Part shown: piece after piece, positions 351-48,181 of the stretch
Layout: every line of letters begins with the position of its first letter
Numbering within the stretch: position 1 is the stretch's first letter
Assembly: GCA_014874485.1 (NCBI GenBank)
Contig: JADBJK010000015.1
Span: forward strand, 1 to 48,181
Reading direction: 5' to 3'
DNA length: 48,181 nt
Origin: Chloroflexota bacterium
GTDB lineage: Bacteria; Chloroflexota; Anaerolineae; DTLA01
The notes under the pieces: generated by a model
The model's database searches: none
The model's input: only the letters and a program-made list of their open reading frames with translations
Told to the model about the DNA's origin: nothing
Translations under genes and position numbers: made by a program

Positions 351-3300
351 CTACCGCGAGGGCGAGGGCCTCGTTTCCGTGCGCGGCAGCGCGGCGAACA
401 CCGCATTCAGCGCCACCAGCGTCCGCTCCAGCGTGTCCCGCCAGGCGTCGTCCAGCGCGACCCACACCTGGCCGCGCCCCAGCCGCGCCCTGGGCGGCAG
501 TTCCCGCTTCAGTTCGGCCTCGGGCGCTTCGTACAGCCACCCCGCGCGCACCACGATCTGCTCGGCCTCCTGCCCGATGGTGCGCACGTCGCAGCGCGTC
601 GCCAGCGCCTTGACCCGCATCAGGTACAGCAGGTTCCGCGCCTCTGGCGGCATGGGGCCGAATCGGTCCTCCATCTCCTGTGCCAGGCGGTCCAGGTCTT
701 CCAGCGGCCCCGCGCCCGCGAATCGGCGGTACAACTGCAGGCGCATCGCCTCGTCTGGGATGTACGACTCGGGCAGGTACGCCGCCATGGGCAGGTTCAA
801 CTGCGTGGCCGACTGGAGCGGCCGCACGTACAGCGCCGTCTCGTCCAGCACCCGCGGGGGGCTTTCGCCCTTCAGTTCGCGCACGGCCTGGGCCAGCAGG
901 CGGCAGTACAGGTCAAACCCCACGGCGCTGATGTGCCCGTGCTGGCGCGCGCCGAGCAACTCGCCCGCGCCGCGAATCTCCAAGTCGCGCATGGCGATGC
1001 GGAACCCCGCCCCCAGTTCGCTGGCCTCCATGATGGTGTCCAGGCGCTTGCGGGCGATGGCGCTCAGCGGCTGGTGGCGCGGGTACAGCAGGTACGCGTA
1101 GGCCCGCTGGGTGCTGCGCCCCACGCGCCCGCGCAACTGGTACAACTGCGCCAGGCCGAATCGGTCTGCGCGGTTGATGATGATGGTGTTGGCGTTGGGG
1201 ATGTCCAGCCCGCTCTCTATGATGGACGTGCACACCAGGACGTCCAACTTGCCCGCGGCGAAGTCCAGCATCACCCGCTCCAGGTCGGCCTCGGGCATCT
1301 GGCCGTGCCCCACGCCCACCGTCGCCTCGGGCACCAGGCGCGCCACCCGCTGGGCGACCTGGTGGATGCCCTGCACGCGGTTGTGGACGAAGTACACCTG
1401 GCCGCCGCGGTTCAGTTCGCGCAGGATGGCGCGCCGAATCAGCGCCTCGTCGTACTCGCCGACGTAGGTCTTGATGGGCAGGCGGTCTTCGGGCGGCGTG
1501 TCAATGGTGCTCATGTCGCGCGCGCCCGTCAGCGACATGTACAGCGTGCGCGGGATGGGCGTCGCGGTGAGGGTGAGCACATCCACCTCGCGCCGCTTCT
1601 GCTTCAGCCACTCCTTGTGCGCCACGCCAAACCGCTGCTCCTCGTCCACGATGAGCAAGCCCAGGTCCTTGAACTGCACGTCCTTCTGCAACAGGCGGTG
1701 CGTGCCGATGATGATGTCCACGCGGCCCGTCGCCAGCCGCTCAAGGACTTGCTGCTGCTCCCGCTTGCTGCGGAAGCGCGACAGCATCTCCACCTCCACG
1801 GGGAAGGGCCGCATCCGCTCGCGGAAGGTTTCGTAGTGCTGCTGCGCCAGCACGGTGGTGGGCACCAGCACCGCCACCTGCTTGCCGTCCATCACGGCCT
1901 TGAACGCCGCCCGCAGCGCCACCTCGGTCTTGCCGTAGCCCACGTCGCCACAGATGAGGCGGTCCATGGGGTAGGGCCGCTCCATGTCGGCCTTGACGGC
2001 GCGCACCGCGTTCAGTTGGTCCTCGGTCTCCACGTAGGGGAACGCCGCCTCCAAATCGGCCTGCCACGGCGTGTCGGGCGAGAAGGCGTGCCCCGACACC
2101 ACCTCCCGCGCCGAGTACAGTTCCAGCAACTCCTTGGCGATGTTGGTAACCGCGCGCTTGGCCCTGGCCTTGACCAGCGTCCAGTCGGCGGTTCCCAGGC
2201 GGCTCAACGGCGGCGGCTTGTCCGTGGCGCCCACGTAGCGGCTGAGGCGGTCGGCCTGGTCAATGGGCACGTACAGTTTATCGGCCCCCTGGAAGTCCAC
2301 CTGCAGGTACTCGCGCTCGGCCCCCTCAACGGTCAGGCGCACCAGGCCCCGGAACACGCCGATGCCCTGCTCCACGTGCACCACGTAGTCGCCCGGCTTC
2401 ACGTCGGCGAAGAAGGCTTCGGGGCCGGGTGCGCGGCGCGGGCGCGGTCGGCGAGGCTCGGGCTTGGCCCAGCCGAACAGTTCGGTGTCGGTGAGGAGCA
2501 GCGCCTCGGCGGGGCCATCGGGCAACACCCGCAGCGTCCATCCGCCCTCCAGCATCCCCTGCACCAGCGTAACGGCGGACTCCGGCGGCGCGGACACGTC
2601 CTCACGCAATGCCGCGTCCAGTCGGTACGGCTCCAGCAGCGAGTGCAGGCGGTGGGCCTGGCGCGACACCACGACCACCTTGCACTCGTCGCCCGCCGCT
2701 TCGGCCACGCCGTCCAGCGCCGTGCGCAGTTGCCCGCCGTAGTGCGTCGCCGGGCCGAAGAGCGCGCCCACGGCGTGCGGCTCGTCGGCGTCGCCGGGGG
2801 GCCACCCAAGCCCGATGCGCGCGAACCCGCCCACCTGTGCCCGAATCTCCGCCCAGGTGAAGTAGGGCCGCGCCACGCCGCCGGCGGGCAAGTCGCCGCC
2901 CGCCTCCAACTGCTCCCGCAGGGCCTCGGCCTGCTCCTCGCCTTCCACGGCGGTGGCCTCAATCTCCTGCCAGTCCTCGGCCATCACCAGGGCATCGGGC
3001 GGCAGGTAGTGCAGCAGGCTGGCCGGCGCGGTGTAGGCAAACGGCAGGTAGAACTCTACCCCACGGAATCGCGCGCCCTCGGCCAGGTGGGATAACTCGG
3101 CCTGAATCTCCTCCAGCGCCGCCCCGTGGCAGTTGGAAAAGTCCCACGCCAGGCGCGACGGGGCCAAGCGCGCGGGGTCGGGCAACACCTCGCTGGCCGG
3201 GACCACCCGCACATGCTCCACGCGCTCCAGCGAGCGCTGCGTCGCGGGGTCGTACAGGCGCAGCGAGTCAATCTCGTCGCCCCAGAACTCCAGCCGCGCC

Positions 3301-3917
3301 GGATAGGGAACCTGCGGCGGGAACACGTCCACGATGCCGCCTCGCGCACCGAAGGTCCCCGGCGTGTCCACCACCGACGCAGGCTCGTAGCCCGCCTCCA
3401 CGAGGAACTGCGCCAGGGCGGTCGGAGAGATGCGCAGGCCCGCGCGAAGGACGCGGTCGTGGGTGCGGAACTCCCGCGGGGGAATCGTCTTGGATTGCAG
3501 CGCCCGCACCGAGGCGACGACAACCGGCGCCGACTCCGCGCCCTGCCGCAGCGCCAGGCTGGGCGGCGGGACCAGCGACTCCAGCGCCGCCAGCCGCTCC
3601 CGCAGCGTGTCCAGCGACCACGGGACGCGCTCGTAGGGCAGCGGGTCTGGTTCGGCGAAGACGCGCACCGCCGCGTGGTTCCCCAGGTACACGCGCACCT
3701 GCTCGGCCAGGGCACGCGCCCGGTCGGCCCGCGGCGCAAGGAGCAGCACGGGCCGCCGCGCGCTCCGGCACACCGCCGCAGCGAAAAAAGCGCGGGCCGC
3801 CGAGGTCAGGCCCGCGTGGAGGACCGCACCGGCCGCGGCCTCGCCCGTAACCTGGTGGAGAAAATCCTCAAAGGCCCGCTGCCGTTCCAGGAGCGGCAAA
3901 AGCCCCGACAGGTTCAT
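351..3917 (-). CDS. mfd: Transcription-repair coupling factor Mfd
   Basis: Superfamily 2 ATPase that removes RNA polymerase stalled at DNA lesions and recruits UvrA for nucleotide excision repair. The 1188 residues match the usual full length. An N-terminal UvrB-like region comes first, then the CarD-like RNA-polymerase-interaction domain near residues 500-560 ([14 protein letters not shown]). The motor carries Walker [10 protein letters not shown] near 656-664, the DEEQ box near 757, and the motif [10 protein letters not shown]. The C-terminal TRCF domain is present. The ATG lies one base after the pth stop codon (TGA at 3919-3921), so the two genes are probably translationally coupled. Identification is secure. 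Confidence 0.97.
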
Positions 3918-3918
3918 G

Positions 3919-4500
3919 TCAATCCCCGTTGAAGCGGTTCATCGCCGCTGCCAGCCCGTCGGCGAGGAAGCATTCCACGGCGTCGGCCGCCCGCTCCTGT
4001 GCAGTGTCCATGACGGCCCACTCGTCGGCGGTGAAGTCCTCCAGCACGTAGCGGTACGGCTCGCCGTAGGCCGGTCTGCCGATGCCCACGCGCAGGCGCG
4101 CGAAATTCTGCGTGCGCAGGTGCTCAATGATGGACGCCAGCCCCTTGTGGCCGCCTGCCCCGCCCGCCGGCCGCAGGCGAATCTTGCCCAGCGGCAGGTC
4201 CAGGTCATCGTACACGACGAGGAGGTTCTTGAGAGGGTCCACGTGATACCAGTGGACGAGGGCGGCCACCGACCCGCCGCTGAGGTTCATGAAGGTCTGC
4301 GGCTTGGCCAGCACCACGGGCACGCCGGCCAAGGTTACGCGGCAGGCCAGCGCCTTGCCCGGATGATTGGCGAAGGTGCCCCCCGCGCGGGCCGCCAGCC
4401 GATCCACAACCTGAAAGCCCACGTTATGCCGATTCTTGGCATAGCGTGGGCCTGGATTTCCCAACCCGACGATGAGAACCACCCGTCGCTCAGATGCCAT
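3919..4500 (-). CDS. pth: Peptidyl-tRNA hydrolase
   Basis: Cleaves peptidyl-tRNA released from stalled ribosomes, recycling tRNA in the cytoplasm. The 193-residue product opens with GLGNPGPRYAKNRHNVGF, holding the conserved Asn and the catalytic His. It continues with KPQTFMNLSGGSV and the VYDDLDLPLGKIRLR block with the conserved Asp. I chose the ATG at 4500 because the protein then begins MASERRVVLIVGLGNPG, as family members do. The longer open frame upstream adds only low-complexity sequence. It sits directly upstream of mfd with a one-base gap, a pairing common in bacteria. Confidence 0.96.
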   Translation of the reverse strand: MASERRVVLIVGLGNPGPRYAKNRHNVGFQVVDRLAARAGGTFANHPGKALACRVTLAGVPVVLAKPQTFMNLSGGSVAALVHWYHVDPLKNLLVVYDDLDLPLGKIRLRPAGGAGGHKGLASIIEHLRTQNFARLRVGIGRPAYGEPYRYVLEDFTADEWAVMDTAQERAADAVECFLADGLAAAMNRFNGD

Positions 4501-4568
4501 ATCGTCGCGCTTTCGCCCCGAACCGCTCACGAGCCGATGCCAAAGCGTAGCCAGGCGCACGTGCGGCC

Positions 4569-5252
4569 TCAACGCTCCGCGATGAGCCGGTACAACTGCC
4601 GCACCAGCGCCAGGAATCCCACCAGCAGGAACAGCCCCAGCGCCACACCCGCGCCCCAGCACATGGACGAAACCAGGCGGTTGAGGCTGAACGATGCACT
4701 GGGTGCAGGCGTGGGCTGCGTGTTGGGGACGGGCGTCGGCGGCTCCGGCGTAACCACCACAGGCACCTCAATCACGATGGTGGGCGTGGGAGGAAGGGGC
4801 GTGGAAGTCTTCGTCGGCGTGGGGGTCGCCGCAGGCGTGGGCGTCTCTGTGGGCATGGCGTTGGCGACCGTGATCTGCCGCACGATGTCCTCGTCAAAGT
4901 TGCCGTCGCGCCGCACCACCCGCAGCCGCAGCGAATAGGTCCCGTCGGGGACGAGGCCCTGGGTGTGCCAGGTCTCCAGCAGCCCGTTCTGCACGGGCGT
5001 CGTGTGGGTTGCGCCGATGAGAATCCACTGGTCATCGCGGGGGTTTGTGCCAGGCGCGTACTCCACCTTGTAGAACGAAAACTCGGGGTGCATGGCCGTC
5101 CCGCTGATGAGCACGCTTCCGCGCACCGTTACAGGCCCGCGCGGCGACGAAATCACCGCCTGCCCGCCCTGCGCCAGCGGCCCCGCAGCGACCGTGGACA
5201 CCAGGACAGCAACCAATGTCAATGAAGCAGCAACCACGAGCACTCGTTTCAT
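4569..5252 (-). CDS. Exported protein with Thr/Pro linker and C-terminal membrane anchor
   Basis: Unrecognised 227-residue surface protein. An N-terminal signal peptide (MKRVLVVAASLTLVAVLVSTVAAG) precedes a compact beta-rich domain at about 30-130, with phrases such as VRGSVLISGTA and LRLRVVRRDG typical of Ig-like or FlgD-like folds. Residues 133-195 are a Thr/Pro-rich linker (TPTPAATPTPTKTSTP) of the kind that spans the wall in Chloroflexota exported proteins. A hydrophobic helix (about 200-220) and a short basic tail end the protein, suggesting membrane anchoring with the domain outside. It is co-oriented with pth-mfd, 68 bases upstream of pth. The function is not predictable. Confidence 0.8.
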   Translation of the reverse strand: MKRVLVVAASLTLVAVLVSTVAAGPLAQGGQAVISSPRGPVTVRGSVLISGTAMHPEFSFYKVEYAPGTNPRDDQWILIGATHTTPVQNGLLETWHTQGLVPDGTYSLRLRVVRRDGNFDEDIVRQITVANAMPTETPTPAATPTPTKTSTPLPPTPTIVIEVPVVVTPEPPTPVPNTQPTPAPSASFSLNRLVSSMCWGAGVALGLFLLVGFLALVRQLYRLIAER

Positions 5253-5331
5253 CTACCCAGCATCTCTCCTGAACTGTAACCGGCTGCAGCGATTGCTTCG
5301 GGCGCTCCTGCCTCGCGATGACACTGCTATC

Positions 5332-5803: not shown

Positions 5804-6892
5804 CTAGAATGGATTGGGAATCTGGAACTGCGGCACCGGCGATACGATGTCCTGGTACGTGATGAGGATCATCACCAGCACCAGCATCACCAGGCCGATC
5901 CAGTGGACGAAGCCTTCCTTGCGCGGGTCCACCCGCTTGCCGCGAACCGCCTCAATGACGATGAACAGGATGCGCCCGCCGTCCAGCGCCGGCAGTGGCA
6001 GCAGGTTGGTCAGCCCCAGCGCCACGCCCAGCACGCCGATGAGCCGCAGGATGGGAAACCACCACCCGGTCTGCGCCGTCTGCGTGGCGGCCGACCCCGT
6101 GATCTGGAAGATGCCCACCGGTCCCACGGGCCGGGCCAGGCTCGGATCCAGCCCCTGGCGCAGCAGGAGCGCCGGCAGGCTCAACGTGAAGGCCAGCGTG
6201 CTCGCCACCTCGCGGGCGCCCAGGTACAGCGCCTCCAGCGGCGGCGAGTACTTCAGCGCGATGCGCGTCGTCTCTTCGGTGATGCCCACCCCCAGAGCGC
6301 CCTGGTACGGCGGGATGGGTATCCGGGGCACCACGCGCACCTGCACGTAGCCCACGCCCCGGCGGATGGTCAGCACGACCTCCTGCCCGGCCTTTTGGCT
6401 CACGTAGCGCGAGAAACTGGCCGCGCTGTCCACCTCTATGCCGTCCATCTGGATGATGACGTCGCCCGCCAGGATGCCCGCGGCCTGCGCCGGCGAGTCG
6501 CTCTCCACGCGCAGCACGACGGCATGCTTCGTCTCGGCCACCGTCGGCCAGCCGCTCATGTAGGCGAAGGCGAAGAACACCGCCGCCATGAGCAGGTTCA
6601 TCAGCGGCCCCGCCGCCAACACGGCCAGCCGCACGCGTTTGCTCTTGTCGGCGAACCCGCCTTCAACGCCCGGTTCGTTCTCGCCGGCCATACGGACAAA
6701 CGCGCCGAACGGGATGGCGTTGATGGTGTATTCCGTTTCGCCGCGCTTGGCCACCCGCACCAGCCTCGGCGGGAACCCAAGCCCGAACTCCTCAACCCGA
6801 ATCTTCGCCAGTTTTGCCGCGACGAAGTGGCCCAACTCGTGGGCGATCATCAGCGCGCTCAAAACCAGCAGTGGCACCACAAACGTCAGCAT
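5804..6892 (-). CDS. rseP: Site-2-type zinc metalloprotease RseP
   Basis: Intramembrane protease that cuts transmembrane anti-sigma factors or signal-peptide remnants within the membrane. The first membrane helix carries HELGH at residues 18-22, the HExxH zinc site. A PDZ domain follows at about 115-200 (GDVIIQMDGIEVDSA). The distal membrane motif NLLPLPALDGGRIL, which supplies the third zinc ligand (the Asp of LDG), lies near residue 305. At 362 residues it is the usual length for single-PDZ Gram-positive-type RseP. A consensus -10 box lies upstream at 6943-6948. No anti-sigma substrate gene is visible nearby. Confidence 0.95.
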   Translation of the reverse strand: MLTFVVPLLVLSALMIAHELGHFVAAKLAKIRVEEFGLGFPPRLVRVAKRGETEYTINAIPFGAFVRMAGENEPGVEGGFADKSKRVRLAVLAAGPLMNLLMAAVFFAFAYMSGWPTVAETKHAVVLRVESDSPAQAAGILAGDVIIQMDGIEVDSAASFSRYVSQKAGQEVVLTIRRGVGYVQVRVVPRIPIPPYQGALGVGITEETTRIALKYSPPLEALYLGAREVASTLAFTLSLPALLLRQGLDPSLARPVGPVGIFQITGSAATQTAQTGWWFPILRLIGVLGVALGLTNLLPLPALDGGRILFIVIEAVRGKRVDPRKEGFVHWIGLVMLVLVMILITYQDIVSPVPQFQIPNPF

Positions 6893-6942
6893 ACGTACCC
6901 TTTCCTGCGCACCGGCGCGAAGCCCGCGCGCGTCTGTGGCCT

Positions 6943-6971
6943 ATTATACGACTGGGATACCGCATGAGCAA
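6943..6971 (-). promoter_or_regulatory. Probable rseP promoter
   Basis: On the minus strand, a perfect TATAAT (6943-6948) is preceded at 17 bases by TTGCTC (6966-6971). It is about 50 bases upstream of the rseP start. The -10 is strong and the -35 matches only partly. Confidence 0.55.
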
Positions 6972-7086
6972 ATGCGGCGCGCCCCCACCCATGTACGGCC
7001 TCATCCACCGCAGCGCACGGCGAGAGCACGGGGGCAGTGCAATTCCCCCCACGCCCTTTGCGTCTGCGCGGTGGAGTCCGAGCGCC

Positions 7087-7905
7087 CTACGCCCGCAGGA
7101 TGGTCCCGAAACTCTCGTCGCCCAGGAGCGCGTCCCGCAGGCGGCCGGGAATCTCGCCCGAGAAGAAGTGCACGCGCACGTGCGGCTGCGACTCCACGAG
7201 CCGCGCCAGGGTCTCCACCTTCGCGAGCATCCCGCCCGTAACGTCCGTGCCGTGGGAGCCGCCGAGCCCGCCCGCGCCCTGCGCCAGCGTCGCCGGCGTG
7301 AGCACCGGAATCCGACGGCTGTCGGGATAGCGGATCGGGTCCGATTCGTACACACCGTCCACGATACCCGCCATGAGGATGCGGGCAGGCGGAATGCGCC
7401 GCGCCAGGTACAAGAAGATGTCCTCGGTGGAGATGATGGCCGTCCCCTGGCCGTCGTCAAACGCCACATCGCCGTACACCAGCGGCACAAGGTCATGCGC
7501 CAGCGCGGCCTCAATCGGCCCCGTCGCCATCTCCACCACCGCCCCCGCGCGCTTCCGCGCCGACGCCGAGGGCTGGAATGAGATGGCAGGCACGCCCGCT
7601 TCCAGACAGGCGTCCACAACCAGGCGATTCAGGCGGGCGGCCGCTGCGCTGGTCTCGGCCAGGCCGCGCCAGTCGTCCTGCCCCGCAAGGCCCGTGTGCA
7701 CGCCGTAGCGCCGCGCCGCGAAGTGCCCGAACGACCCGCTGCCGTGGCCCAGCACCACCCGCAGGCGCGGAGCCGCATCCAGCGCCGCCCGCACCTCCCG
7801 CGCCAGGCGGCGGATGACGTCCAGGCGCGGCGTGGCCTCTCGCGTCTTGTCCGTGATGAGCGAGCCGCCCAGTTTCACGAACACCGTCTCGCACTCCGCG
7901 CTCAT
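7087..7905 (-). CDS. Isopentenyl phosphate kinase
   Basis: Amino-acid-kinase-fold enzyme that phosphorylates isopentenyl phosphate to isopentenyl diphosphate, the last step of the archaeal mevalonate routes. The 272 residues start MSAECETVFVKLGGSLITDK, where K11 is in the phosphate-binding motif. They contain GHGSGSFGHF with H61 in the position of the catalytic His typical of this family, then GIVDGVYESDP and DVTGGMLAKVE. The ATG at 7905 overlaps the stop codon of the upstream gene as ATGA, so it is coupled to the aconitase-X small subunit. The related acetylglutamate and fosfomycin kinases lack the SFGH signature. The family is clear; the pathway rests on the neighbours. Confidence 0.9.
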   Translation of the reverse strand: MSAECETVFVKLGGSLITDKTREATPRLDVIRRLAREVRAALDAAPRLRVVLGHGSGSFGHFAARRYGVHTGLAGQDDWRGLAETSAAAARLNRLVVDACLEAGVPAISFQPSASARKRAGAVVEMATGPIEAALAHDLVPLVYGDVAFDDGQGTAIISTEDIFLYLARRIPPARILMAGIVDGVYESDPIRYPDSRRIPVLTPATLAQGAGGLGGSHGTDVTGGMLAKVETLARLVESQPHVRVHFFSGEIPGRLRDALLGDESFGTILRA

Positions 7906-8324
7906 TCCTTCTGCGCCCCCCGTCCCGCGCGGGCAACGCGGCGCACCGTAACCCACTCGCCGTCAATGGTAACCTCGTCGCCCGTGCGTATCTGCGTGAT
8001 GTCTATTCCGTCCACCATCGGGATGTTGGAGATGATGGCCCCGACGGCCACAATGGCCTCGCTGCTGGCGTTGATGATGCCCAGCGGAGCCAGCCCCTTA
8101 TACGCCAACCTGTACAGGACGTAGGAACCCACCGTGCTCCCCTTGCCCGTGGGGAACACGAGAATCTTGCCCGCCACCGATTGCCCTCGCAGGGGATGCC
8201 CCGCCTCCACCACGACGCCGGTCTCGGCATCCACGCCGCCGAGGAAGCCAATCGGCTCCGGCGAGACGAGCGCCTCGCCGTGGACCGTGCCCGCCTTGAT
8301 GACGCGCCCGCGCAATCTCAGCAC
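7902..8324 (-). CDS. Aconitase-X small (swivel) subunit, probable phosphomevalonate dehydratase
   Basis: DUF126-type swivel domain that pairs with the aconitase-X catalytic subunit. Motifs are VIKAGTVHGEALVSPEPIGF near the N-terminus and GKGSTVGSYVLYRL with the conserved active-site Ser region. I chose the GTG at 8324: an excellent GGAGGAGGGG precedes it at proper spacing, and it gives a normal 140-residue protein. The ATG at 8375 would overlap the large-subunit gene by 58 bases. With the GTG start the overlap with the large-subunit stop is 7 bases. In archaea, two-gene aconitase-X converts mevalonate 5-phosphate to trans-anhydromevalonate phosphate; the bacterial alternative is cis-3-hydroxyproline dehydration. 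Confidence 0.85.
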   Translation of the reverse strand: MLRLRGRVIKAGTVHGEALVSPEPIGFLGGVDAETGVVVEAGHPLRGQSVAGKILVFPTGKGSTVGSYVLYRLAYKGLAPLGIINASSEAIVAVGAIISNIPMVDGIDITQIRTGDEVTIDGEWVTVRRVARAGRGAQKE

Positions 8325-9562
8325 GCGCCCCTCCTCCGCGGCGGCCAGCACCCTCGCACCGCCGCATCCAGGCACTCGCCCAGCGTCCCAAGCCGCACCT
8401 GCAAGCCCGAATGCGACGGCGCGTAGAAGGCGGCCTTCGCCGAGTTCGTCGCCATCGTCTTCACGCCCAGCGCCTCCACCGGAGCCACCACCAGGCAGGT
8501 GTCGCTGACCACGTGGCCGCCCGCGTGCTCAATCGTTTGCACCCAGCCTGCTGCCTCGGCCCGCCGCCGCGTCTCGCGGGATGTCGTGATCCACAGCAGG
8601 CTCCGCACCCGCTTGCCCGCCAGGAACCGCGCCGCATCCCGCAACTCCTCCAGCGACGCATGGGGGCAGCCGATGCTCACGAAGTCAATGCGCTCCAACG
8701 GGCTGCTCAGGCGCGCGTACCCCTCGTCCAGCGAGTCAATCGTCAGTTCCTGGGCGTCGGGCCGCACGATGTCATCCAATTCCGATTCGGGCGTCATCCC
8801 CTGCACGTGGAACAGCGCCACCGCACCCGCCGCGGCCATGGCCGCCGCCAGTGCCCGCAGGTGCAGGGCTGCGGTGATGCCCTCGGCAGTCCAGGCCGCG
8901 CCGTCCGCGACGAAGTACGGGATGCCCTTACCCACGCGCCGCCCCACCTCGTAGCCCAGGACGCCGAAATCCACCTCGGTTCGCACCGGGCAGGCCACGC
9001 GCACGATGTGGGTGGCGCGACGGTTCTCGGTCAGGTGCAGGCCATAGCGGGCCGTGCGTCCGCAGATGGCCGCTGCCAGCGCGCTCGGCCCTCCTTCGCG
9101 GTTCGTCCGCGCCCCCAGGATGGAATTGGCGAAGGCCACCGCCGACGACTCGCTCCAGGCCAGGTGCGACCCCAGGCCCGGCACCTTGCCGATGAGGTAC
9201 GGCGTGCAGGTGCAGGTCATCTCAATCCCCATCCGCGCGTAGGCGTCCAGCACCTCCATCTGGCGGCGTGCGAATTCCTCCGGCAGGCCCAGCGTCTGCC
9301 ACTGCTCCAAGTCCATACCCGCCGGGTTCAGCATGGTGGGCACGCGCACCCGCGCCCCCTCCCGCGCCCATTCCTGCAGGAACAGCAGGCCCGCCTCGCC
9401 TAGGTTCTTGTAACTCACGCCCGCCACCTGGACGCTCTCCACCGGCACCAAATCCGCCGCGCCGTAGATCTTGCCCAGCGCGGTAACGATCTCCATCGCC
9501 TTTTGCACGGCCGGGCCTTCCTTGCCCGCCAGCATGTGCTTCTCTTGCCGCGTGAGGTACAT
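8318..9562 (-). CDS. Aconitase-X large (catalytic) subunit, probable phosphomevalonate dehydratase
   Basis: DUF521-type Fe-S dehydratase subunit of 414 residues starting MYLTRQEKHMLAGKEG, the usual family opening. Cysteines likely to hold the cluster occur in MTCTCTPYLIGKVPG, in the VACPVRTEVDFG segment and in SIGCPHASLEEL. The central AFANSILGARTNREGGPSAL block is highly characteristic. An in-frame GTG at 9568 sits at better spacing from the AGGAG site, so the true start may be two codons earlier. It is first in an operon with the swivel subunit and isopentenyl phosphate kinase, which argues for phosphomevalonate dehydratase rather than hydroxyproline dehydratase. Confidence 0.87.
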   Translation of the reverse strand: MYLTRQEKHMLAGKEGPAVQKAMEIVTALGKIYGAADLVPVESVQVAGVSYKNLGEAGLLFLQEWAREGARVRVPTMLNPAGMDLEQWQTLGLPEEFARRQMEVLDAYARMGIEMTCTCTPYLIGKVPGLGSHLAWSESSAVAFANSILGARTNREGGPSALAAAICGRTARYGLHLTENRRATHIVRVACPVRTEVDFGVLGYEVGRRVGKGIPYFVADGAAWTAEGITAALHLRALAAAMAAAGAVALFHVQGMTPESELDDIVRPDAQELTIDSLDEGYARLSSPLERIDFVSIGCPHASLEELRDAARFLAGKRVRSLLWITTSRETRRRAEAAGWVQTIEHAGGHVVSDTCLVVAPVEALGVKTMATNSAKAAFYAPSHSGLQVRLGTLGECLDAAVRGCWPPRRRGAC

Positions 9563-9568
9563 GCCCAC

Positions 9569-9874
9569 AGTTACTCCTGTCCCGAATGGCGGCCCTGCGC
9601 CGCCGGGCCCCATAATATCACACCGCCCCAGTTTTGCAACCGGCGGGCGGGTTCCATGGACACCGATTCAGGGGTTCCGTCCGCGCGGGTTCGCGGTTCT
9701 CCCCCATTGTCATGCAGAGCGAAGCGAAGTATCTCGGTTTGCGAGATTCTTCGGCACTCCGCGCCCTCGCAATGACAACCCCTGCCTGTCATCACCTCGC
9801 AGGTGCGTCGCACGTGCATGACAGGCTCATGGGATTCTTCGGCGCTGCGTGCCCGCGCATGACGGTTGCCCGCT
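9569..9874. repeat. Intergenic region with TGTCAT-ended elements
   Basis: This divergent gap holds no gene I can support. It contains one complete element at 9708-9777 (TGTCATGCAGAG to CAATGACA). After it come a half copy of the P1 hairpin (AGGTGCGTCGCACGTG, near 9801) and a truncated element reaching the ATGACG near 9860. The trpD-like promoter follows directly. Confidence 0.7.
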
Positions 9875-9903
9875 TTGACGTCGCCCGCCCCCTGTGCTAC
9901 ACT
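9875..9903 (+). promoter_or_regulatory. Promoter of the trpD-like gene
   Basis: TTGACG (9875-9880), 17-base spacer, TACACT (9898-9903), 33 bases before the ATG. This is a near-consensus housekeeping promoter. A closely matching design (TTGACG, 17, TACAAT) occurs at 28843-28871. Confidence 0.75.
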
Positions 9904-9936
9904 CTACCCAGACCTGATGCACCCGCGAGGAAGACC

Positions 9937-10962
9937 ATGAACTTCAGCGAGATCATCGCGCGCCTTGTCCAGCGGCATGCCCTGGACGAACGAGAGGCTG
10001 AACAAGCCCTCACCATGGTGCTGGAAGGGGACACTACCCCCGCCCAAACGGCGGCGTTCCTCGTCGCCCTGCGGATGAAGGGCGAGACCATCGCCGAGAT
10101 GACCGGCTTCGCGCGGGCCATGCGCAGCAAGGTCATCCCGGTCCGTACGCGCCGCCGCGACCTGGTGGACATCAGCGGGACCGGCGGCGACTACGCCCGA
10201 ACGTTCAACATCTCCACCACCGCGGCGTTTGTGGCCGCGGGGGCCGGCGCCGCCGTCGCCAAGCATGTGGACCGTTCGGTGTCCAGCCGGTGCAGCAGCG
10301 CCGACCTGCTGGAGCGCCTCGGCATCTGCCTGGCCCTGGACCCCGAACAGATCGCCCGCTGCATTGACGAGGTGGGCATCGGGTTCCTGTACGCGCCGCG
10401 CCTGCACCCGTCGCTGAAGTACGTGGCCGAAGCCCGCCGCGACCTGGGCATCCAGACGGTCTTTGACATCCTGGCCCCGCTCACCAATCCCGCCGGAGCC
10501 GAGGCGCGCGTGCTGGGCGTCTATGCCGGCTCGCTCACCGAACTCCTGGCCGGCGTCCTGCGCGTGCTGGGCGCGGTCTCGGCCTATGTGGTCTATGGCG
10601 CGGATGGCATGGACGAGTTCTCCACGACCGGCGTCAACAAGGTCAGCCGCCTGGAAGGCGGGACCATCACCACGTATGCGCTGGACTCGCTGGAATTTGA
10701 CCTGCCGCGGGCGTCGCTGCACGAACTGTCGGGCGGCAGTGTGGACGAGAACGTGGCCATCACGCAGGCCATCCTGTCGGGCGAGCGCGGCGCGCGACGC
10801 GACATCGTCGTGCTGAACGCCGCCGTGGCGCTGGTGGCCGCCGGCGTCGCCATGGACCTGCGGGAGGGCATCCAGCAAGCCGAGGCCGCCATTGACTCCC
10901 GCGCCGCCTGGCGCAAACTGCAAGAACTCGGCGCGCTGACGCAGAAACTGAAGGAAGACTGA
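9937..10962 (+). CDS. Anthranilate phosphoribosyltransferase-family protein (TrpD-like)
   Basis: A 341-residue member of the TrpD / nucleoside phosphorylase class III fold, which transfers phosphoribosyl groups. It keeps GTGGD at 81-85, TFNIST, RSVSSRCSSADLLERLG and GADGMDEFSTTGVNKV. Several signature positions differ from canonical TrpD. KHGNR is KHVDR (109-113), the residue after GTGGD is Tyr rather than Gly, and the usual NLLGPL is DILAPL. It is solitary, with no other trp gene nearby. It may be a true TrpD of divergent type or a paralogue with another amine or base substrate. The ATG at 9937 gives the standard family N-terminus. The promoter is at 9875-9903. Confidence 0.8.
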   Translation: MNFSEIIARLVQRHALDEREAEQALTMVLEGDTTPAQTAAFLVALRMKGETIAEMTGFARAMRSKVIPVRTRRRDLVDISGTGGDYARTFNISTTAAFVAAGAGAAVAKHVDRSVSSRCSSADLLERLGICLALDPEQIARCIDEVGIGFLYAPRLHPSLKYVAEARRDLGIQTVFDILAPLTNPAGAEARVLGVYAGSLTELLAGVLRVLGAVSAYVVYGADGMDEFSTTGVNKVSRLEGGTITTYALDSLEFDLPRASLHELSGGSVDENVAITQAILSGERGARRDIVVLNAAVALVAAGVAMDLREGIQQAEAAIDSRAAWRKLQELGALTQKLKED

Positions 10963-11004
10963 CCCGTGCCTGCCGCCTACACCCCACTCGGAGGAGGAAA
11001 CCCC

Positions 11005-12138
11005 ATGCGATATCGTCCGTTCGGCAACACCGGAGCCACCGTGAGCGCCCTGGGATTCGGCGCTATGCGCCTGCCCATGACCCCCGACGGGGAGCACGTG
11101 GACGAGGACCGCGCCATTCCGGTCATCCAGCGCGCGCTGGAACTGGGCATCAACTACCTGGACACGGCCCCGTACTACTGCAAGGGCGAGAGCGAAATCG
11201 TGCTGGGCAAGGCCATCAAAGGCTGGCGCGACCGCGTGTACATCTCCACCAAGAACCCGCTGGACAACCCCGACCCGGGCGAGTTCCGCCGGTGGCTGGA
11301 GACGTCACTCCGCAAACTGGACGTGGAGTATATTGATTTCTACCACATGTGGGGCATGAACAAGGTCAAGTACGAGACGATGGTGGGCACGCCCGGCGGG
11401 CGGCTGGAGGAGGCCCGCAAGGCCAAAGAAGAGGGACTCATCCGCCACATCAGTTTCTCGTTCCACGACACGCCCGAAGTCCTGGAATGGTTCATTGACA
11501 CCGGTTACTTTGAGAGCATGACGGTGCAGTACAACCTGCTGGACCGGGCCAACGAGGCCGCCATCGCCCGCGCCGCAGCCCGTGGCATGGGCGTCGTCAT
11601 CATGGGGCCTGTGGGCGGCGGACGCCTGGCCGAGACCTCGCCCGAAATCCGCAAACTCCTGCCCGCGGGCGTGTCGGGAAGCCCCGAACTGGCCCTGCGG
11701 TTCGTCCTGTCGCATCCCGGCGTGCACGTGGCGCTGTCGGGCATGAGCACTGTGCAGATGGTGGAGGAGAACGCCGCCACCGCATCGCGGGAGGAGCCGC
11801 TGAGCGCCGACGAGCGGGCCGCCATCGCCCGCGCCATGGATCAGATGGCCGCGCTGGCCCAACTGTACTGCACCGGCTGCGGCTACTGCATGCCGTGCCC
11901 CAACGACGTGAACATCCCGGAGAACTTCAAGTACATGAACTACTACCGCGTGTACGGCCTGGCCGAGTACGCGCGGCAGGCTTATGCCCAATTGGGCCGC
12001 CCGGGGAGTTGGATCAAGGGCCTCAAAGCCGAGGCCTGCGTCCAGTGCGGCGAGTGCGAACCCAAGTGCCCGCAGCACATCCCCATCATGAAGCAACTGG
12101 AGGAAGTGGCCGAGGTCCTGGGCGGCAAGACTCGCTGA
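11005..12138 (+). CDS. Aldo/keto reductase with C-terminal 4Fe-4S ferredoxin domain
   Basis: A 377-residue NAD(P)H-type oxidoreductase with an electron-transfer tail. The AKR barrel (MRYRPFGNTGATVSALGFG) has the usual catalytic set: Asp and Tyr in LDTAPYY, Lys in YISTKNPLD and His in IDFYHMWGMNK. The last 100 residues hold cysteine clusters CTGCGYCMPCPNDVNIP and CVQCGECEPKCPQHIPI, which should bind 4Fe-4S clusters. This fusion is common in anaerobes, where the substrate is usually unknown. The ATG at 11005 follows a strong GGAGGAGG; an upstream in-frame ATG at 10966 has no such site. It starts 42 bases after the trpD-like gene and is probably co-transcribed with it. Confidence 0.92.
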   Translation: MRYRPFGNTGATVSALGFGAMRLPMTPDGEHVDEDRAIPVIQRALELGINYLDTAPYYCKGESEIVLGKAIKGWRDRVYISTKNPLDNPDPGEFRRWLETSLRKLDVEYIDFYHMWGMNKVKYETMVGTPGGRLEEARKAKEEGLIRHISFSFHDTPEVLEWFIDTGYFESMTVQYNLLDRANEAAIARAAARGMGVVIMGPVGGGRLAETSPEIRKLLPAGVSGSPELALRFVLSHPGVHVALSGMSTVQMVEENAATASREEPLSADERAAIARAMDQMAALAQLYCTGCGYCMPCPNDVNIPENFKYMNYYRVYGLAEYARQAYAQLGRPGSWIKGLKAEACVQCGECEPKCPQHIPIMKQLEEVAEVLGGKTR

Positions 12139-21017: not shown

Positions 21018-21801
21018 CCGAGGCCCGCAGTCGGCAACAGACCTCATAGTGGGCGCGGCGTGCCCGCCCAACGCGAAGCCATCGTGCAGGGTTCGTAGGG
21101 GTGCAGCGCGCTGCGTCCCTACACGTGGCGGGGGTTTAGCCCCGCGCTGTGCCGCCCACAGTTGCCCGAGGCTGAAGCCGTCGGGCTGAAGGGGCGAAGC
21201 CCTACGGGCTACCCCAGCCCCGAAGGGGCTTGGCTTGTTCAGCGCGGGGGTTCAGCCCCGCGCGGTGCCCACAGTCGCCCGACGCTAAAGCATCGGGCTG
21301 AAAGGGCGAAGCCCTGCGGGCTGGTGCGAGTGCGCGGCTTCCCCTTCGTGTCTTTCGCGGCCTTTCGCGGCGTTCGTGATCCAGACGCCCCTCACCCTGG
21401 CCCTCTCCCCGCGGGAGAGGGAACGCGGCGTGCCCGCCCAACGCGAGGCCGTCGGGCTGAAGGGGCGAAGCCCTACGGGCTACCCCAGCCCCGAAGGGGC
21501 TTGGCTTGTTCAGCGCGGGGGTTCAGCCCCGCGCGGTGCCCACAGTCGCCCGAGGCTGAAGCCGTCGGGCTGAAGGGGCGAAGCCCTAGCGGGCTGGTGC
21601 GGACGCGCGGGCCCCTTTCGCGTCCTTCGTGGCTTTTCGCGGCGTTCGCGGTCCAAACGCCCCTCACCCTGGCCCTCTCCCGGCGGGAGAGGGAACGCGT
21701 GGGCCCCTTTCGCGTCCTTCGCGGCCTTTCGCGGCGTTCGCGGTCCAAACACCCCTCACCCTGGCCCTCTCCCCGCGGGCGAGGGAACGCGGCCCGCGCG
21801 C
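21018..21801. repeat. Modular GC-rich repeat field
   Basis: No supportable gene. Three module types recur. (a) GTCGGGCTGAAGGGGCGAAG with the downstream CCCCAGCCCCGAAGGGGCTT and CGGGGGTTCAGCCCCGCGC hairpins, at about 21178-21290 and 21448-21555 (270 bases apart), with a partial third after 21562. (b) CCTCACCCTGGCCCTCTCCC with GAGAGGG, at about 21386, 21658 and 21750. (c) CTTTCGCGGCGTTCG tracts between them. Modules (a) and (c) reappear, (c) in inverse orientation, in the tandem array at 47821-48181. Confidence 0.8.
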
Positions 21802-23664: not shown

Positions 23665-24003
23665 ATGGAGAGCAAACGCCTGGCGCGCGAGCGCAAGACG
23701 GTGGCAGCGATGATCCGCATCTACTGCCGGGGGCAACACGGCACCCGCGCCGGCCTGTGCGCCGAGTGCGGGGAGTTGCTGGCCTACGCCCAAGAGCGGC
23801 TGGAGCGGTGCCGGTTCGGCGCGGACAAGCCGACGTGCGCCAACTGCCCCGTGCACTGCTACAGGCCCGCCATGCGCGAGCGAATCCGCGCCGTGATGCG
23901 CTACGCCGGCCCGCGCATGTCCTACCGCCATCCCGTCCTCACACTGTATCACTTTCTGGATGGCCGCAGGAAGGGACCAGAGAAGAGGCAGAACGGCGAA
24001 TAA
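23665..24003 (+). CDS. YgbA-type cysteine-rich protein (nitrous-oxide-stimulated promoter family)
   Basis: A 112-residue protein of the YgbA_NO family. It starts MESKRLARERKTVAAMIRIYC, then has CAECGELLAYAQERLERCRFG, a cysteine group TCANCPVHCYRP, and MREIRAVMRYAGPRM-like basic sequence (RERIRAVMRYAGPRM here). Seven cysteines suggest metal or Fe-S binding. In enterobacteria ygbA is under the NO-sensing repressor NsrR, and its molecular role is not settled. The ATG at 23665 gives the family N-terminus. It stands alone between the minus-strand dynamin and the restriction-modification island. Confidence 0.85.
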   Translation: MESKRLARERKTVAAMIRIYCRGQHGTRAGLCAECGELLAYAQERLERCRFGADKPTCANCPVHCYRPAMRERIRAVMRYAGPRMSYRHPVLTLYHFLDGRRKGPEKRQNGE

Positions 24004-24127
24004 CAGGAGGCGGGTTCCTCGTACCTGCCTCGCTACCCCAGAGACGTGCTGCGGCTGGAGATAGGCTCCGTGCTCTGCGTATTCTTTCTATAGGATCCTC
24101 GTCAGGCCGGATAGACCGCCAGCGCTA

Positions 24128-24652
24128 TCACAGTTTCCCGAGGCGATTCGCGTCCGCTGTTATCATCGCCCCATAGTCAATTGACCGCGCGAATTCGTCC
24201 CACCTTGCCACCACAACAGATCTTGGCAGCGTGCCTGATTCCTGGTAGTATTCCAGTACGTCAATCCGCCCGAAGGTCACCAACAGGGCGAGAAGAGAAT
24301 CAGAGGCACCCTGCGGTGACACAACGAACGAGTATTCCGGTTTGGCGACTTTGCTGTATATGAGAATCTGGGACACGTGCGCCAATCTGATAGGAACATT
24401 CTTGCATTCAACGAAAGCCAGCCGTGTCTGGGTCTTGGTGATGACAAACCCAACGACGTCAACGTGAATATCCCACGACGGCCACTCGGCCGGTAGGTTC
24501 TGATCCAAACCATTCTGTTTGATGAGTTTTGCTAGACTTGACCGTGATGCGTCAAACACGTTGACATCCGCCAGCCGGTGTCTGCCCTTCAGAAACACCG
24601 ACAGCCATTCACAGACCGGGCGGTACATCTCGGGCTCGCTGGCGTAAGGCAT
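24128..24652 (-). CDS. Putative PD-(D/E)xK restriction endonuclease subunit
   Basis: A 174-residue protein, unrecognised beyond its nuclease fold. WDIHVDVVGF (D61, D65) and LAFVECKN (E82, K84) give a D-x16-E-x-K motif with the expected strand spacing for Mg-dependent restriction nucleases. It has no obvious DNA-recognition domain. It is third in a minus-strand set after a DNA methyltransferase and a LAGLIDADG-like protein, 64 bases from the latter. Base composition here is visibly richer in A+T than in neighbouring genes, suggesting transfer. It is probably the cleavage subunit of a restriction-modification system; no cognate specificity can be inferred. Confidence 0.65.
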   Translation of the reverse strand: MPYASEPEMYRPVCEWLSVFLKGRHRLADVNVFDASRSSLAKLIKQNGLDQNLPAEWPSWDIHVDVVGFVITKTQTRLAFVECKNVPIRLAHVSQILIYSKVAKPEYSFVVSPQGASDSLLALLVTFGRIDVLEYYQESGTLPRSVVVARWDEFARSIDYGAMITADANRLGKL

Positions 24653-24716
24653 AGGCTTCTACATCCTGCGTCGTGAAAGCGGCGAGTTGGGATGATGCTA
24701 GATTGGAAGCCGCTCT

Positions 24717-25652
24717 CTACCCCTCTTCAATGGTTTCTTCAGCCATGGCCATGTCTGTCGGGTCGTTTGGCTGTGGCTGCCGCGTGCAGCCCAAGACTTT
24801 ACAGATCTGCCAGTAGGAATCGAAGTGCTTGCCCCAAAGACGCTTATCCAGCTTGTCCGCGTTGTGCTCCCGTTGATCGGTCGGCTTATCGCGGGGTCTA
24901 CGAAGCCCCGGGCACTTGCCGTACTTCACGTCGGGGAAACTCTTGGCGTCAAACTCGGCAAACTCCGTGAGAATCTGCTGTTTGTATTCTAGTGAGAAAC
25001 CAACCTTCAAGAAGGGCTGGGCAAAAACGTTTATCTGATGTTCTCGGAAGTCTCTGCCCATGTTTGGATGTCCCCACGTTATCAATTGCACAGGGACGTC
25101 AAGGTGATCTTGAAGCAGCGTGCACAGCTGGACAGGTAGTTCCCAGTTGGTGGGGTAGTTCAAAACGTCGAGCCTGACGCGGTGCCTGCCATCCACGTAG
25201 CGGTTGGCATGCCGGATGTTCCCAGCAACGTCGGCGAAACCGCGAACAAACTCCCTCTTCCATTCGACAGGAAGTTCTGGGTCTAGGAATACTTTGGGGA
25301 TTCGGAAATACGCATAATCGGTCTTGCCTTCGGTTAGAAGTAGGATGTTGCGCCAAATCATATTGTGACGCATGAAGCGGATGACGAGATGAACGCCATT
25401 GTTCTTGGCGATCTTCTGAATGTCGGTATCCAGAAGCTCCTGGAGACGGTCCAGGATTTTGTCTAGCCCGAGTCTGATGGCCGTGTCCAGGGAGAAGGTG
25501 CTGGAAATACCCTGCGCCTCAAGGGATTGGTAACTGAATTCAATGGTCAGTTGGCGGACGCCGGAAACTTCAGCGATGGTGCCGCGGCCGATAATCAGGC
25601 CTGCAAGATACGCTACGTCTGCGTCTATGTAGTCATCCAGTCTAGAGTGCAT
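24717..25652 (-). CDS. Degenerate LAGLIDADG-fold protein of the R-M island
   Basis: A 311-residue protein with two LAGLIDADG-like helices about 120 residues apart, AYLAGLIIGRGTI (residues 14-26) and REFVRGFADVAGNI (near 134-147), each followed by beta-rich sequence. The acidic residue that binds catalytic metal (second D of the motif) is Arg in the first copy and Ala in the second. Cleavage by this fold is therefore doubtful, and DNA binding is the likelier job. The C-terminal 70 residues are basic and contain two cysteines. It starts 18 bases after the methyltransferase with GAGGTAG before the ATG, so the genes form one unit. Base composition is A+T-shifted. Confidence 0.7.
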   Translation of the reverse strand: MHSRLDDYIDADVAYLAGLIIGRGTIAEVSGVRQLTIEFSYQSLEAQGISSTFSLDTAIRLGLDKILDRLQELLDTDIQKIAKNNGVHLVIRFMRHNMIWRNILLLTEGKTDYAYFRIPKVFLDPELPVEWKREFVRGFADVAGNIRHANRYVDGRHRVRLDVLNYPTNWELPVQLCTLLQDHLDVPVQLITWGHPNMGRDFREHQINVFAQPFLKVGFSLEYKQQILTEFAEFDAKSFPDVKYGKCPGLRRPRDKPTDQREHNADKLDKRLWGKHFDSYWQICKVLGCTRQPQPNDPTDMAMAEETIEEG

Positions 25653-25670
25653 TATCTACCTCGCCCCAAA

Positions 25671-26564
25671 CTACGTCCAGGGCCTCTGGAAGATGAGGAT
25701 GAACTCGTGGGCCTTGTTAACACGAAAGACGTGAGGATAACCGAGTGGCCTCATATTATTGTATTCATGCCGCCGGTCCCAGATAATGATATCATCGTAG
25801 ACGAAGCCGATCTCCTGCATAGAATCAGCGAAGTCGCTGTGGAAGGGATAGAACTTGTTTTTCTTTCTGAGATCCATTACCACCACGCAGCAGTAAGCAC
25901 CGGGCCTCATAGCCCTATAAACTTTGGCGAATATTTCTTTCAGTTGGAGTAGAAACTCATGGTAGTCGCTGATTCTCCCCAGGTCACCAGCCTCATCTCC
26001 GTAATGCCTGATCTCCTTGTAGTCCGCAGTGCGTTTCTCAGTAAGGATATTCCAATATGGGGGAGAGGTAACCACCAAGTCAACCGAGCCCTCGCCAACA
26101 TACTGCAGCAGGTCTCTCGCGTTGGCAGTATGGATGACCGCACTTCCTCCTGGGACATCAAACATAGAGGCAATGGCACATCTGGATCTGGCCTTGTCGG
26201 CAAACTCTGGGTTCAACTCAATTCCGATCCCGTGCTTACCCAGCCTTTTCGCAGCCAAGACCGTCGTACCTACCCCCGCGAAGGGATCAAGAACAACTTT
26301 GTCATCGCGGTTGGTAAATATCTCTATCAGGCGGCTTACCAGGGCCAAAGGAAAGATGGCAGGGTGGCCAAGTTCGATCTCTTCTGGTGTCTTCTTGATG
26401 TCACTCCAGATAGAGATTGAATACTTCGTCCATGTCTTGCCGTCAAGTTCGTTGGCGCGGCCTTTCGCGCTGCCGGCGCGGGACAAGCCTTCTTCCTCGT
26501 CCTCGGCTAGCGCGGATTCGCATTCTTGAGACAAGAGGGGTTGGGCTGGTTCAGCAATCGACAT
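25671..26564 (-). CDS. DNA methyltransferase (N4-cytosine/N6-adenine type)
   Basis: A 297-residue modification enzyme. In order it has HPAIFP (67-72), the SAM-binding motif I DPFAGVGTT (93-101), GIELNPEF, and the catalytic TSPPYW (166-171). TSPPYW is frequent in N4-cytosine enzymes. I chose the ATG at 26564, which has GGAG at 8 bases; the first ATG of the frame at 26603 lacks a ribosome site. There is no separate target-recognition domain beyond the C-terminal 120 residues. It is first in a three-gene island with the LAGLIDADG-fold protein and the nuclease, and should protect host DNA from the latter. Confidence 0.88.
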   Translation of the reverse strand: MSIAEPAQPLLSQECESALAEDEEEGLSRAGSAKGRANELDGKTWTKYSISIWSDIKKTPEEIELGHPAIFPLALVSRLIEIFTNRDDKVVLDPFAGVGTTVLAAKRLGKHGIGIELNPEFADKARSRCAIASMFDVPGGSAVIHTANARDLLQYVGEGSVDLVVTSPPYWNILTEKRTADYKEIRHYGDEAGDLGRISDYHEFLLQLKEIFAKVYRAMRPGAYCCVVVMDLRKKNKFYPFHSDFADSMQEIGFVYDDIIIWDRRHEYNNMRPLGYPHVFRVNKAHEFILIFQRPWT

Positions 26565-26847
26565 AATCCATGCTCCAATTACCACTGCATAACTGGCCTG
26601 CATTCACATTCTAAGGCACGAAAAACCGTTTGTCAAGTCCATCTGCTCTTGGACACGTAACATACACGGTGGGTGAGTTTGCAGTCCCCACCTGGCCGCC
26701 AGGAAAGGTGCAGAAATAGGGAGAACGCCCCGCGCGGCTAGCAACAGACTGCGAAATTCAGGGACGATGTCCCACCATTATGTTAACCAACTGCCTATTC
26801 TACAGACACTGCTCTTGCGTCGCCCCCTCTGCGCTCCGTGGTGAACC
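26565..26847. other. Gene-free stretch between R-M island and mutL
   Basis: This is the upstream region of the methyltransferase and the downstream region of mutL. I see no gene, RNA or clear promoter. A fragment CTCTGCGCTCCGTGGTGAA near 26828 resembles the CTCTGCG...GGTGAA debris found at 12.2, 28.6 and 41.8 kb. Confidence 0.5.
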
Positions 26848-29144: not shown

Positions 29145-29235
29145 ATGCGCAAATACGACCTCATCGTGATCGGAACAGGCGCTGGCATGAACGTGGCGGC
29201 CAATGCCGCGGCCCACGGCATGCGCGTCGTGGAGC
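29145..29235 (+). pseudogene. Truncated copy of the 5' end of the lpd-like gene
   Basis: It begins ATGCGCAAATACGACCTCAT and follows the first 96 bases of the gene at 30099 with few changes: GCTGGC for GCCGGC, AATGCC for AACGCC, and loss of six bases in CGCGTCGCCGTCGTG. It breaks off at GTGGAGC and runs into the palindrome at 29240. Only the start of the FAD-binding fold remains, so it is not functional. Confidence 0.85.
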
Positions 29236-29239
29236 GAAC

Positions 29240-29277
29240 AACCCGTAGGGGCAATTCATGAATTGCCCCTACGGGTT
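29240..29277. repeat. 38-bp perfect palindrome (family P2), copy 1
   Basis: Perfectly self-complementary, centred on ATTCATGAAT with arms AACCCGTAGGGGCAATTCA. It lies directly upstream of the RAYT transposase gene. Other copies: 29861-29888, 30044-30075 and a variant at 46269-46290. Confidence 0.9.
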
Positions 29278-29295
29278 GTAGGCAGGACAGATGTC

Positions 29296-29850
29296 ATGAA
29301 GTACGATCCAGACAAGCACCATCGCCGTTCCATCCGCCTCAAGGGGTACGACTACTCGCAGGGCGGTGCGTACGCGATCACCGTCTGCATACGTAACCGA
29401 GAGTGTATCCTGGGTGAGGTGGTGGGAGACCGCGTAGCCTTATCCGCATTGGGGACGAAAGCCCAAGAGCTCTGGCTAGCGATTCCCGGACGGTTTGAGA
29501 ACGTGTTGCTGGATGAATTCATCGTGATGCCCAATCACGTGCACGGTATCATCGTTATCCAAGGAGAGGTCAAGACAATGGTTGAGCCTCCCGAACCTGC
29601 TCTAGATGCGCCGATTTCCCGCGAGCAACGGCGACAGATGCTGATCCCAAAGATTGTCGGGTATTTCAAGATGAATTCCGCAAAATCTATCAACCTCCTG
29701 CGGAATACGCCAGGGGTTCCTGTGTGGCAACGCAACTACTACGAGCGGGTCATCCGCACGGAGGAAGAATGGAATATCCTGCGTCAATACATTGCTGGGA
29801 ATCCTCAGCGTTGGCACGAGGACGAGGAGAACCCTTCTGTCTTCCGTTGA
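29296..29850 (+). mobile_element. REP-associated Y1 transposase (RAYT) gene
   Basis: A 184-residue TnpA_REP-type HUH transposase of the IS200/IS605 superfamily, related to enzymes that move short palindromic REP sequences as single strands. It has RRSIRLKGYDYSQGGAYAIT at the start, the HUH motif in MPNHVHGIIVI (about residue 80), and a distal Tyr in NYYERVIRTEEEWNILRQYI as the nucleophile candidate, followed by NPQRW. The ATG at 29296 gives the family start MKYDPDKHHRRSIRLKGYDY. The gene is intact and lies between palindromes at 29240-29277 and 29861-29888 that share the same core, its likely substrates. Confidence 0.92.
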
Positions 29851-47820: not shown

Positions 47821-48181
47821 GGGCGCACGGCGGCGCGGGGGTTTAGCCCCGCGCTGAGAGGGCAAAGCCCTGCGGGCTACCCCAGCCCCGAAGGGGCTTG
47901 GCGCTTTTAGCCCGGTGCTTCAGCGCCGGGCGGCGGGCGGGGCGTTTGGATCACGAACGCCGCGAAAGGGCGCGAAAGGCACGAAAGGGTCGGTCGGGCG
48001 CACGGCGGCGCGGGGCTAAACCCCCGTGCTGAGAGGGCAAAGCCCTGCGGGCTACCCCAGCCCCGAAGGGGCTTGGCGCTTTCAGCCCGGTGCTTCAGCG
48101 CCGGGCGGCGGGCGGGGCGTTTGGATCACGAACGCCGCGAAAGGGCGCGAAAGGCACGAAAGGGTCGGGCGGGCGCACGGC
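47821..48181. repeat. 175-bp tandem repeat running off the window end
   Basis: GGGCGCACGGCGGCGCGGGG begins at 47821 and 47996, and the next unit starts at 48171, giving an exact 175-base period. Each unit holds hairpins (CAAAGCCCTGCGGGCT, CCCCGAAGGGG, GCCCGGTGCTTCAGCGCCGGGC) and a CGAACGCCGCGAAAGG tract, the inverse of a module at 21.3-21.7 kb. Bases 47765-47820 hold a further CCTGCCGGGAGAGGG module. No gene. Confidence 0.9.

Follow-up and report, generated by a model that had tools for sequence, protein, structure and literature searches.

A LAGLIDADG-fold protein without metal-binding acids as the candidate DNA-reading subunit of a probable three-gene restriction-modification system in a Chloroflexota bacterium

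Contig JADBJK010000015.1 of a Chloroflexota bacterium (GCA_014874485.1), whose analysed stretch of 48,181 nucleotides is termed the window here, carries on its minus strand at positions 24128-26603 three genes coding for a DNA methyltransferase (MT, 310 aa), a protein of LAGLIDADG fold (LAG, 311 aa) and a small PD-(D/E)xK nuclease (NUC, 174 aa), a trio which very probably constitutes a restriction-modification (R-M) system, apparently for defence against viruses. It is also likely that this system is Type II-like and has a two-subunit restriction enzyme, in which LAG would read the DNA and NUC would cut it. In the proposed mechanism, MT would methylate a base in the target site to N4-methylcytosine (m4C) or N6-methyladenine (m6A), protecting the host, while LAG, a meganuclease fold without both metal-binding acids, would bind the target through its beta-saddles. 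NUC, a compact PD-(D/E)xK protein without an obvious recognition domain, would be recruited into a complex by LAG and would cut unmethylated DNA, probably with two copies per cut, because LAG cannot cut. Computed here were the folds, the loss of acids in LAG, the intact motifs of NUC and MT, the linkage of the genes, purifying selection, exchange of the methyltransferase and horizontal gain.

For the middle protein, an original prediction made from the sequence alone had pointed to the motifs YLAGLIIGRG and FVRGFADVAG, with Arg or Ala at the metal-binding position. A LAGLIDADG profile search, suggested as a check, gave no Pfam match, and no credible sequence match to LAG was found in NCBIfam, PADLOC, PHROGs or PDB. 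The fold itself was borne out by an AlphaFold2 (AF2) model built as a single chain from an alignment of 19 LAG sequences (predicted local distance difference test, pLDDT, 85.4; predicted template modelling score, pTM, 0.88). The model shows the order alpha-beta-beta-alpha-beta-beta-alpha twice, two halves with LAGLIDADG helices forming a LAGLIDADG pseudodimer, its C-terminal part being of lower confidence. The best 50 Foldseek matches of this model were all LAGLIDADG proteins, WhiA among them, and a second look gave Z scores of 15.9 with PI-SceI, 14.8 with I-DmoI and 14.4 with WhiA.

The two metal-acid positions are R23 in helix 1 and A143 in helix 2. The former is R or N and the latter A, G, T or S in 25 of 25 LAG homologues, none of which has the acidic ligand at motif position 8 of an active homing endonuclease; because of this, the usual LAGLIDADG active sites are gone family-wide and not only in this copy. 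A second catalytic site such as that of Type IIT heterodimers was not found either, LAG having no acids at the usual site and its model no PD-(D/E)xK domain, and neither the Pfam scan nor the AF2 model gave evidence of a helix-turn-helix (HTH). In close pairs the ratio of nonsynonymous to synonymous substitution rates was 0.09-0.14 for LAG, compared with 0.08-0.12 for NUC and 0.05-0.16 for MT, indicating purifying selection. Mean column entropy is 0.65-0.90 in the strands of the second half of LAG and 1.55-2.34 in those of the first. The conserved saddle, with its Arg, Asn, His and Gln residues, is probably a retained DNA-contacting surface, with LAG possibly reading one constant and one variable half-site, but could also be a surface for a partner.

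NUC also lacks a credible family in sequence searches of Pfam, NCBIfam, PADLOC, PHROGs and PDB, its only PADLOC match being to one homing-endonuclease model with an E-value of 0.04. Its AF2 model (pLDDT 92.3, pTM 0.89) has a compact PD-(D/E)xK fold made up of the catalytic core and a beta-hairpin with little beyond, with Z scores of 8.5 for AF1548, 8.3 for the nuclease domain of PaqCI, 8.1 for BsaWI and 6.9 for the small subunit of R.BspD6I (2p14, 186 residues). All 23 homologues share E6, D65, E82, K84, Q95 and Y99. A separate PD-(D/E)xK nuclease had been proposed originally, and both the fold and the intact E/D/ExK site agree with this; among the active-site residues named at that time, D65 and E82-x-K84 held up, but residue 61 varies between D, N, E and H.

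MT matches PF01555 of Pfam in two stretches (E-value 7.4e-36) and is a circularly permuted member of the N6_N4 family, its halves matching PDB 2zie in reversed order. The motifs DPFAGVGTT and TSPPYW are intact and the catalytic motifs are invariant in 11 homologues, so that MT retains both the S-adenosylmethionine (SAM) and the catalytic motifs of the methyltransferase of a Type II-like R-M system. Its predicted product is m4C or m6A, the TSPPYW motif leaning towards m4C. Only about 30 conserved residues are present where 2zie has its inter-motif insert, and the recognition region of MT may be reduced.

A scan of bacterial genomes identified 14 relatives of LAG (45-63% identity), which belong to Chloroflexota, Acidobacteriota and Poribacteria, and in all 14 MT lies upstream and NUC downstream. 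Remoter relatives (26-31%), likewise with NUC directly behind, come from two L. plantarum plasmids, two Heliusvirales phages and viral contigs; a single-protein scan of viral contigs gave no match, but alignment queries did find relatives. LAG lies beside a DNA methyltransferase in 26 of 26 non-redundant loci (Chloroflexota, Acidobacteriota, Poribacteria, Lactiplantibacillus plasmids and gut phages), with NUC behind it in all except two: at L030 the contig ends, and at L033 LAG is fused. The order MT-LAG-NUC is kept across Chloroflexota, Acidobacteriota, Poribacteria and viral contigs. Linkage is hence maintained across distant genomes and mobile elements, as the original prediction had anticipated, and homologues unlinked from methyltransferases were not found in this neighbourhood survey. 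In 400 genomes of the phylum searched for NUC, the only hits besides trios were a fragment at the start of a contig and, in G162, a partial match that is weak (E-value 6.6e-4) and not a full NUC; no full-length NUC without LAG was found. Identity matrices of the two proteins run in parallel (Mantel r 0.94, p 0.0002), a sign of co-inheritance and not of contact. On the 6.5 kb L. plantarum plasmid p9, nothing other than LAG and NUC is an evident candidate for the restriction part.

At L033 (G347:C91), LAG is the C-terminal part of a chain of 1,122 aa; NUC is missing, and a related methyltransferase lies beside the fusion. Fusion to a different large protein fits the expectation for a transferable DNA reader, and the locus is possibly another defence system with the same LAG reader. 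The N-terminal part of the fusion gave no family match. The locus, at positions 763-5253 and 5872-11547 of this contig, has the fusion followed by the methyltransferase, a protein of 179 aa and one of 1,891 aa, the last with DEDDh exonuclease, DinG-like and RecQ-like helicase regions.

Other loci show further features. On the viral contig of L024, the m5C (C5-methylcytosine) methyltransferase and LAG are separated by a protein of NOV_C type with a likely PD-(D/E)xK motif (2868-3941), and in L023 the gene right after NUC codes for a Ppl-like (PHP-AAA) defence ATPase (6403-8991), suggesting a defence cluster on that viral contig. A broken second copy of NUC lies upstream of the intact trio in L013 (3369-3915). 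In L011 the frame of NUC is interrupted (5932-6441) with MT and LAG intact, so that the assembly is in error here or the cutting subunit has been lost.

The methyltransferase beside LAG and NUC is not always of the same kind. Loci L017, L019, L020, L023 and L024 have an EcoRI-type adenine methyltransferase and a C5-cytosine methyltransferase, fused or adjacent, that of L020 being typed by annotation (DNA methyltransferase, same length as its kin) and not by profile scan. Loci L021 and L022, on the other hand, carry the permuted MT and group with L024 inside the EcoRI-type m6A plus m5C (Bacillota-type) clade, with support of 90/75 in the LAG tree and 100/99 in the NUC tree. A recent transfer of their MT from the Chloroflexota group was considered and rejected, as the MT tree places it outside that group. 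The trees indicate that the methyltransferase has been exchanged within the Bacillota-type LAG-NUC clade, to which the claim is limited. Since the LAG-NUC pair was kept while the methyltransferase changed, the pair should carry its own specificity and not one derived from a single methyltransferase. Type IIT systems have two methyltransferases, sometimes in one chain, and asymmetric sites (PMC4081073); by analogy, the fused or paired methyltransferases of different kinds suggest that Bacillota-type members may likewise read an asymmetric site.

Horizontal gain of the trio is supported by several observations. Its A+T-richer composition, remarked on originally, corresponds to a G+C content of 0.51-0.56 against about 0.66-0.70 in the surroundings. 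In the congener G302, whose two flanks align at 92-95%, about 660 bp stand in place of the trio and hold another gene, that of a small SAM-methyltransferase, which is frame-disrupted in the G302 copy. LAG is absent from two genomes of the same genus, one of them G302, and present in only 5 of 199 relatives. The locus of G214, of the same phylum, is identical to one in a Chloroflexaceae metagenome-assembled genome, which points to Chloroflexota as the phylum. A chimeric window was considered and rejected, as both flanks match the congener at 92-95% on one contig.

Features of the trio and its surroundings in the window
Feature	Position	Strand	Basis
MT, DNA amino-methyltransferase	25671..26603	-	PF01555, permuted order vs PDB 2zie, catalytic motifs
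LAG, LAGLIDADG-fold protein, proposed DNA-reading subunit	24717..25652	-	AF2 model, Foldseek, Z scores
LAGLIDADG helix 1, YLAGLIIGRG, LAG residues 15-24	25581..25610	-	Metal-acid position is R23
LAGLIDADG helix 2, FVRGFADVAG, LAG residues 135-144	25221..25250	-	Metal-acid position is A143
Second beta-saddle of LAG, residues 144-210	25023..25223	-	Most conserved element, R/N/H/Q-rich
NUC, small PD-(D/E)xK nuclease, proposed catalytic subunit	24128..24652	-	AF2 model, Z scores
NUC active-site block D65 ... E82-x-K84	24401..24460	-	Invariant in 23/23 homologues
Acquired segment with trio	23974..26808	.	Congener comparison and G+C drop

A check of the open reading frames (ORFs) reproduced the minus-strand arrangement and ORF lengths given in the original prediction, with gaps of 18 bases between MT and LAG and 64 bases between LAG and NUC. 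The frame of MT has an upstream ATG at 26603, the alternative start at 26564 being the one used originally. Elsewhere in the window, imperfect G+C-rich repeated segments lie at 21160-21760 (matches at 21194-21324 and 21435-21597), which also match near 48008 and in a congener. At 29203-29850 there is an ORF resembling a transposase of the REP (repetitive extragenic palindrome)-associated tyrosine (Y1) type with repeat-like flanks, as judged by eye only.

The main rival to a LAG that reads for NUC, which we consider unlikely, would have NUC recognise its site by itself, as a complete small Type IIP-like enzyme, and LAG regulate the operon. R.PvuII is a small Type II enzyme of about the size of NUC with its own specificity, and the earlier argument that NUC leaves little room for target recognition is weak for this reason; WhiA, moreover, is a dead LAGLIDADG protein turned regulator (PMC3781837). 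However, the NUC model amounts to little more than a catalytic core and a beta-hairpin, and LAG is without an evident HTH, the part that bears DNA specificity in WhiA. NUC has also kept LAG in every testable unfused locus, including those of phages and plasmids and those with different methyltransferases, and the LAG of L033 forms one chain with a different large protein. It appears rather improbable, too, that LAG serves MT and NUC alike as a specificity subunit, in the manner of S in Type I, IIB or IIH systems (M + S + R). The perhaps reduced recognition region of the permuted MT would suit such a role, as would the fact that MT always adjoins LAG, also in L033 where NUC is missing, but in L017, L019, L020, L023 and L024 the pair stands beside EcoRI-type and m5C methyltransferases which match their families over the full length and should read DNA themselves. 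LAGLIDADG proteins are usually encoded by mobile elements, and LAG might be a decayed homing endonuclease gene, a selfish insertion in an R-M operon; this is very improbable, as there is no intein or intron context, the position is the same in all loci, and purifying selection and conserved saddle residues persist despite the dead active sites.

Some points nevertheless tell against the division of labour between LAG and NUC. Cutting, DNA binding and methylation by the trio are predicted from computation, and LAG and NUC were modelled as single chains, their complex being a proposal. The fold matches of NUC, with a best Z score of 8.5, fall within a range also scored by unrelated models, although its conserved residues agree with them, and the Mantel correlations are due in part to shared vertical descent. 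The compact MT has little room for a recognition domain, and LAG might serve MT too. On the whole, the original proposal that a homing-endonuclease scaffold was recruited as the DNA-reading subunit of a separate nuclease is partly supported; of the outcomes that would have refuted it, none of those open to a check here was observed.

A broader and more doubtful idea sees in LAG a transferable module for DNA addresses, derived from a meganuclease; its conserved second half would read a common half-site and its variable first half differing ones. LAG would work with a matching methyltransferase and exchangeable effectors (NUC, or the 1,122-aa fusion by the DinG/RecQ-like helicase), giving a natural series of retargeted readers with detached cutters. 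Natural meganuclease readers uncoupled from cutting, with a small nuclease apart, would, if LAG is the reader, bear on the evolution of immunity and on DNA-targeting tools. Since members lie on a plasmid of L. plantarum P9, a food bacterium in culture, the system is open to direct testing.

The literature searched, from which REBASE and most subscription papers were absent, yielded no Type II enzyme or R-M system that has a LAGLIDADG subunit, and the layout, put forward as new in the original prediction, had no described match there. A review of Type II enzymes covers PD-(D/E)xK, HNH, GIY-YIG and a few rare folds, and the word LAGLIDADG is absent from it (PMC4081073). R.BspD6I, with a 604-aa reader/nickase and a 186-aa catalytic subunit, likewise combines a large reader with a small PD-(D/E)xK subunit of a size similar to NUC and is a precedent for a small specificity-free catalytic subunit (PMC4081073). 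In some members of the heterodimeric Type IIS/IIT enzymes the methyltransferases are paired or fused, as in the trio family (PMC4081073). The large subunit of BspD6I also cuts, whereas LAG has the LAGLIDADG fold without catalytic acids. The nuclease domain of the Type IIS enzyme PaqCI resembles NUC, but its reader and cutter are one chain. PaqCI was considered as a one-chain LAG-NUC and rejected, as its paper names no LAGLIDADG fold and it is not among the LAG fold matches listed. The S subunits of the Type IIH system AhdI and of Type IIB systems serve the methyltransferase, and to our knowledge their fold is unrelated to the LAGLIDADG fold of LAG. They are, like LAG as proposed, separate non-catalytic specificity proteins (PMC4081073).

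PI-SceI and I-DmoI have the pseudodimeric fold in common with LAG. Unlike homing endonucleases, however, the LAG family has lost both acids in all members, has no intron or intein and has fixed partner genes. WhiA (DUF199) is, like LAG, a domesticated LAGLIDADG fold without catalytic residues, but the analogy drawn originally is imperfect. In WhiA, which has a role in transcription, the added C-terminal HTH does the specific DNA binding and the LAGLIDADG domain alone gives no footprint (PMC3781837), but LAG shows no evident HTH, does not match WhiA in sequence and retains a second beta-saddle that is strongly conserved; WhiA is a weaker precedent than first supposed. Catalytic folds are shared between restriction enzymes and homing endonucleases of the GIY-YIG, HNH and PD-(D/E)xK families. 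Restriction enzymes of two subunits, one of them small and catalytic (BspD6I), and dead LAGLIDADG proteins (WhiA) are already known; if LAG is the reader, R-M immunity would here have adopted a meganuclease fold solely as an address subunit.
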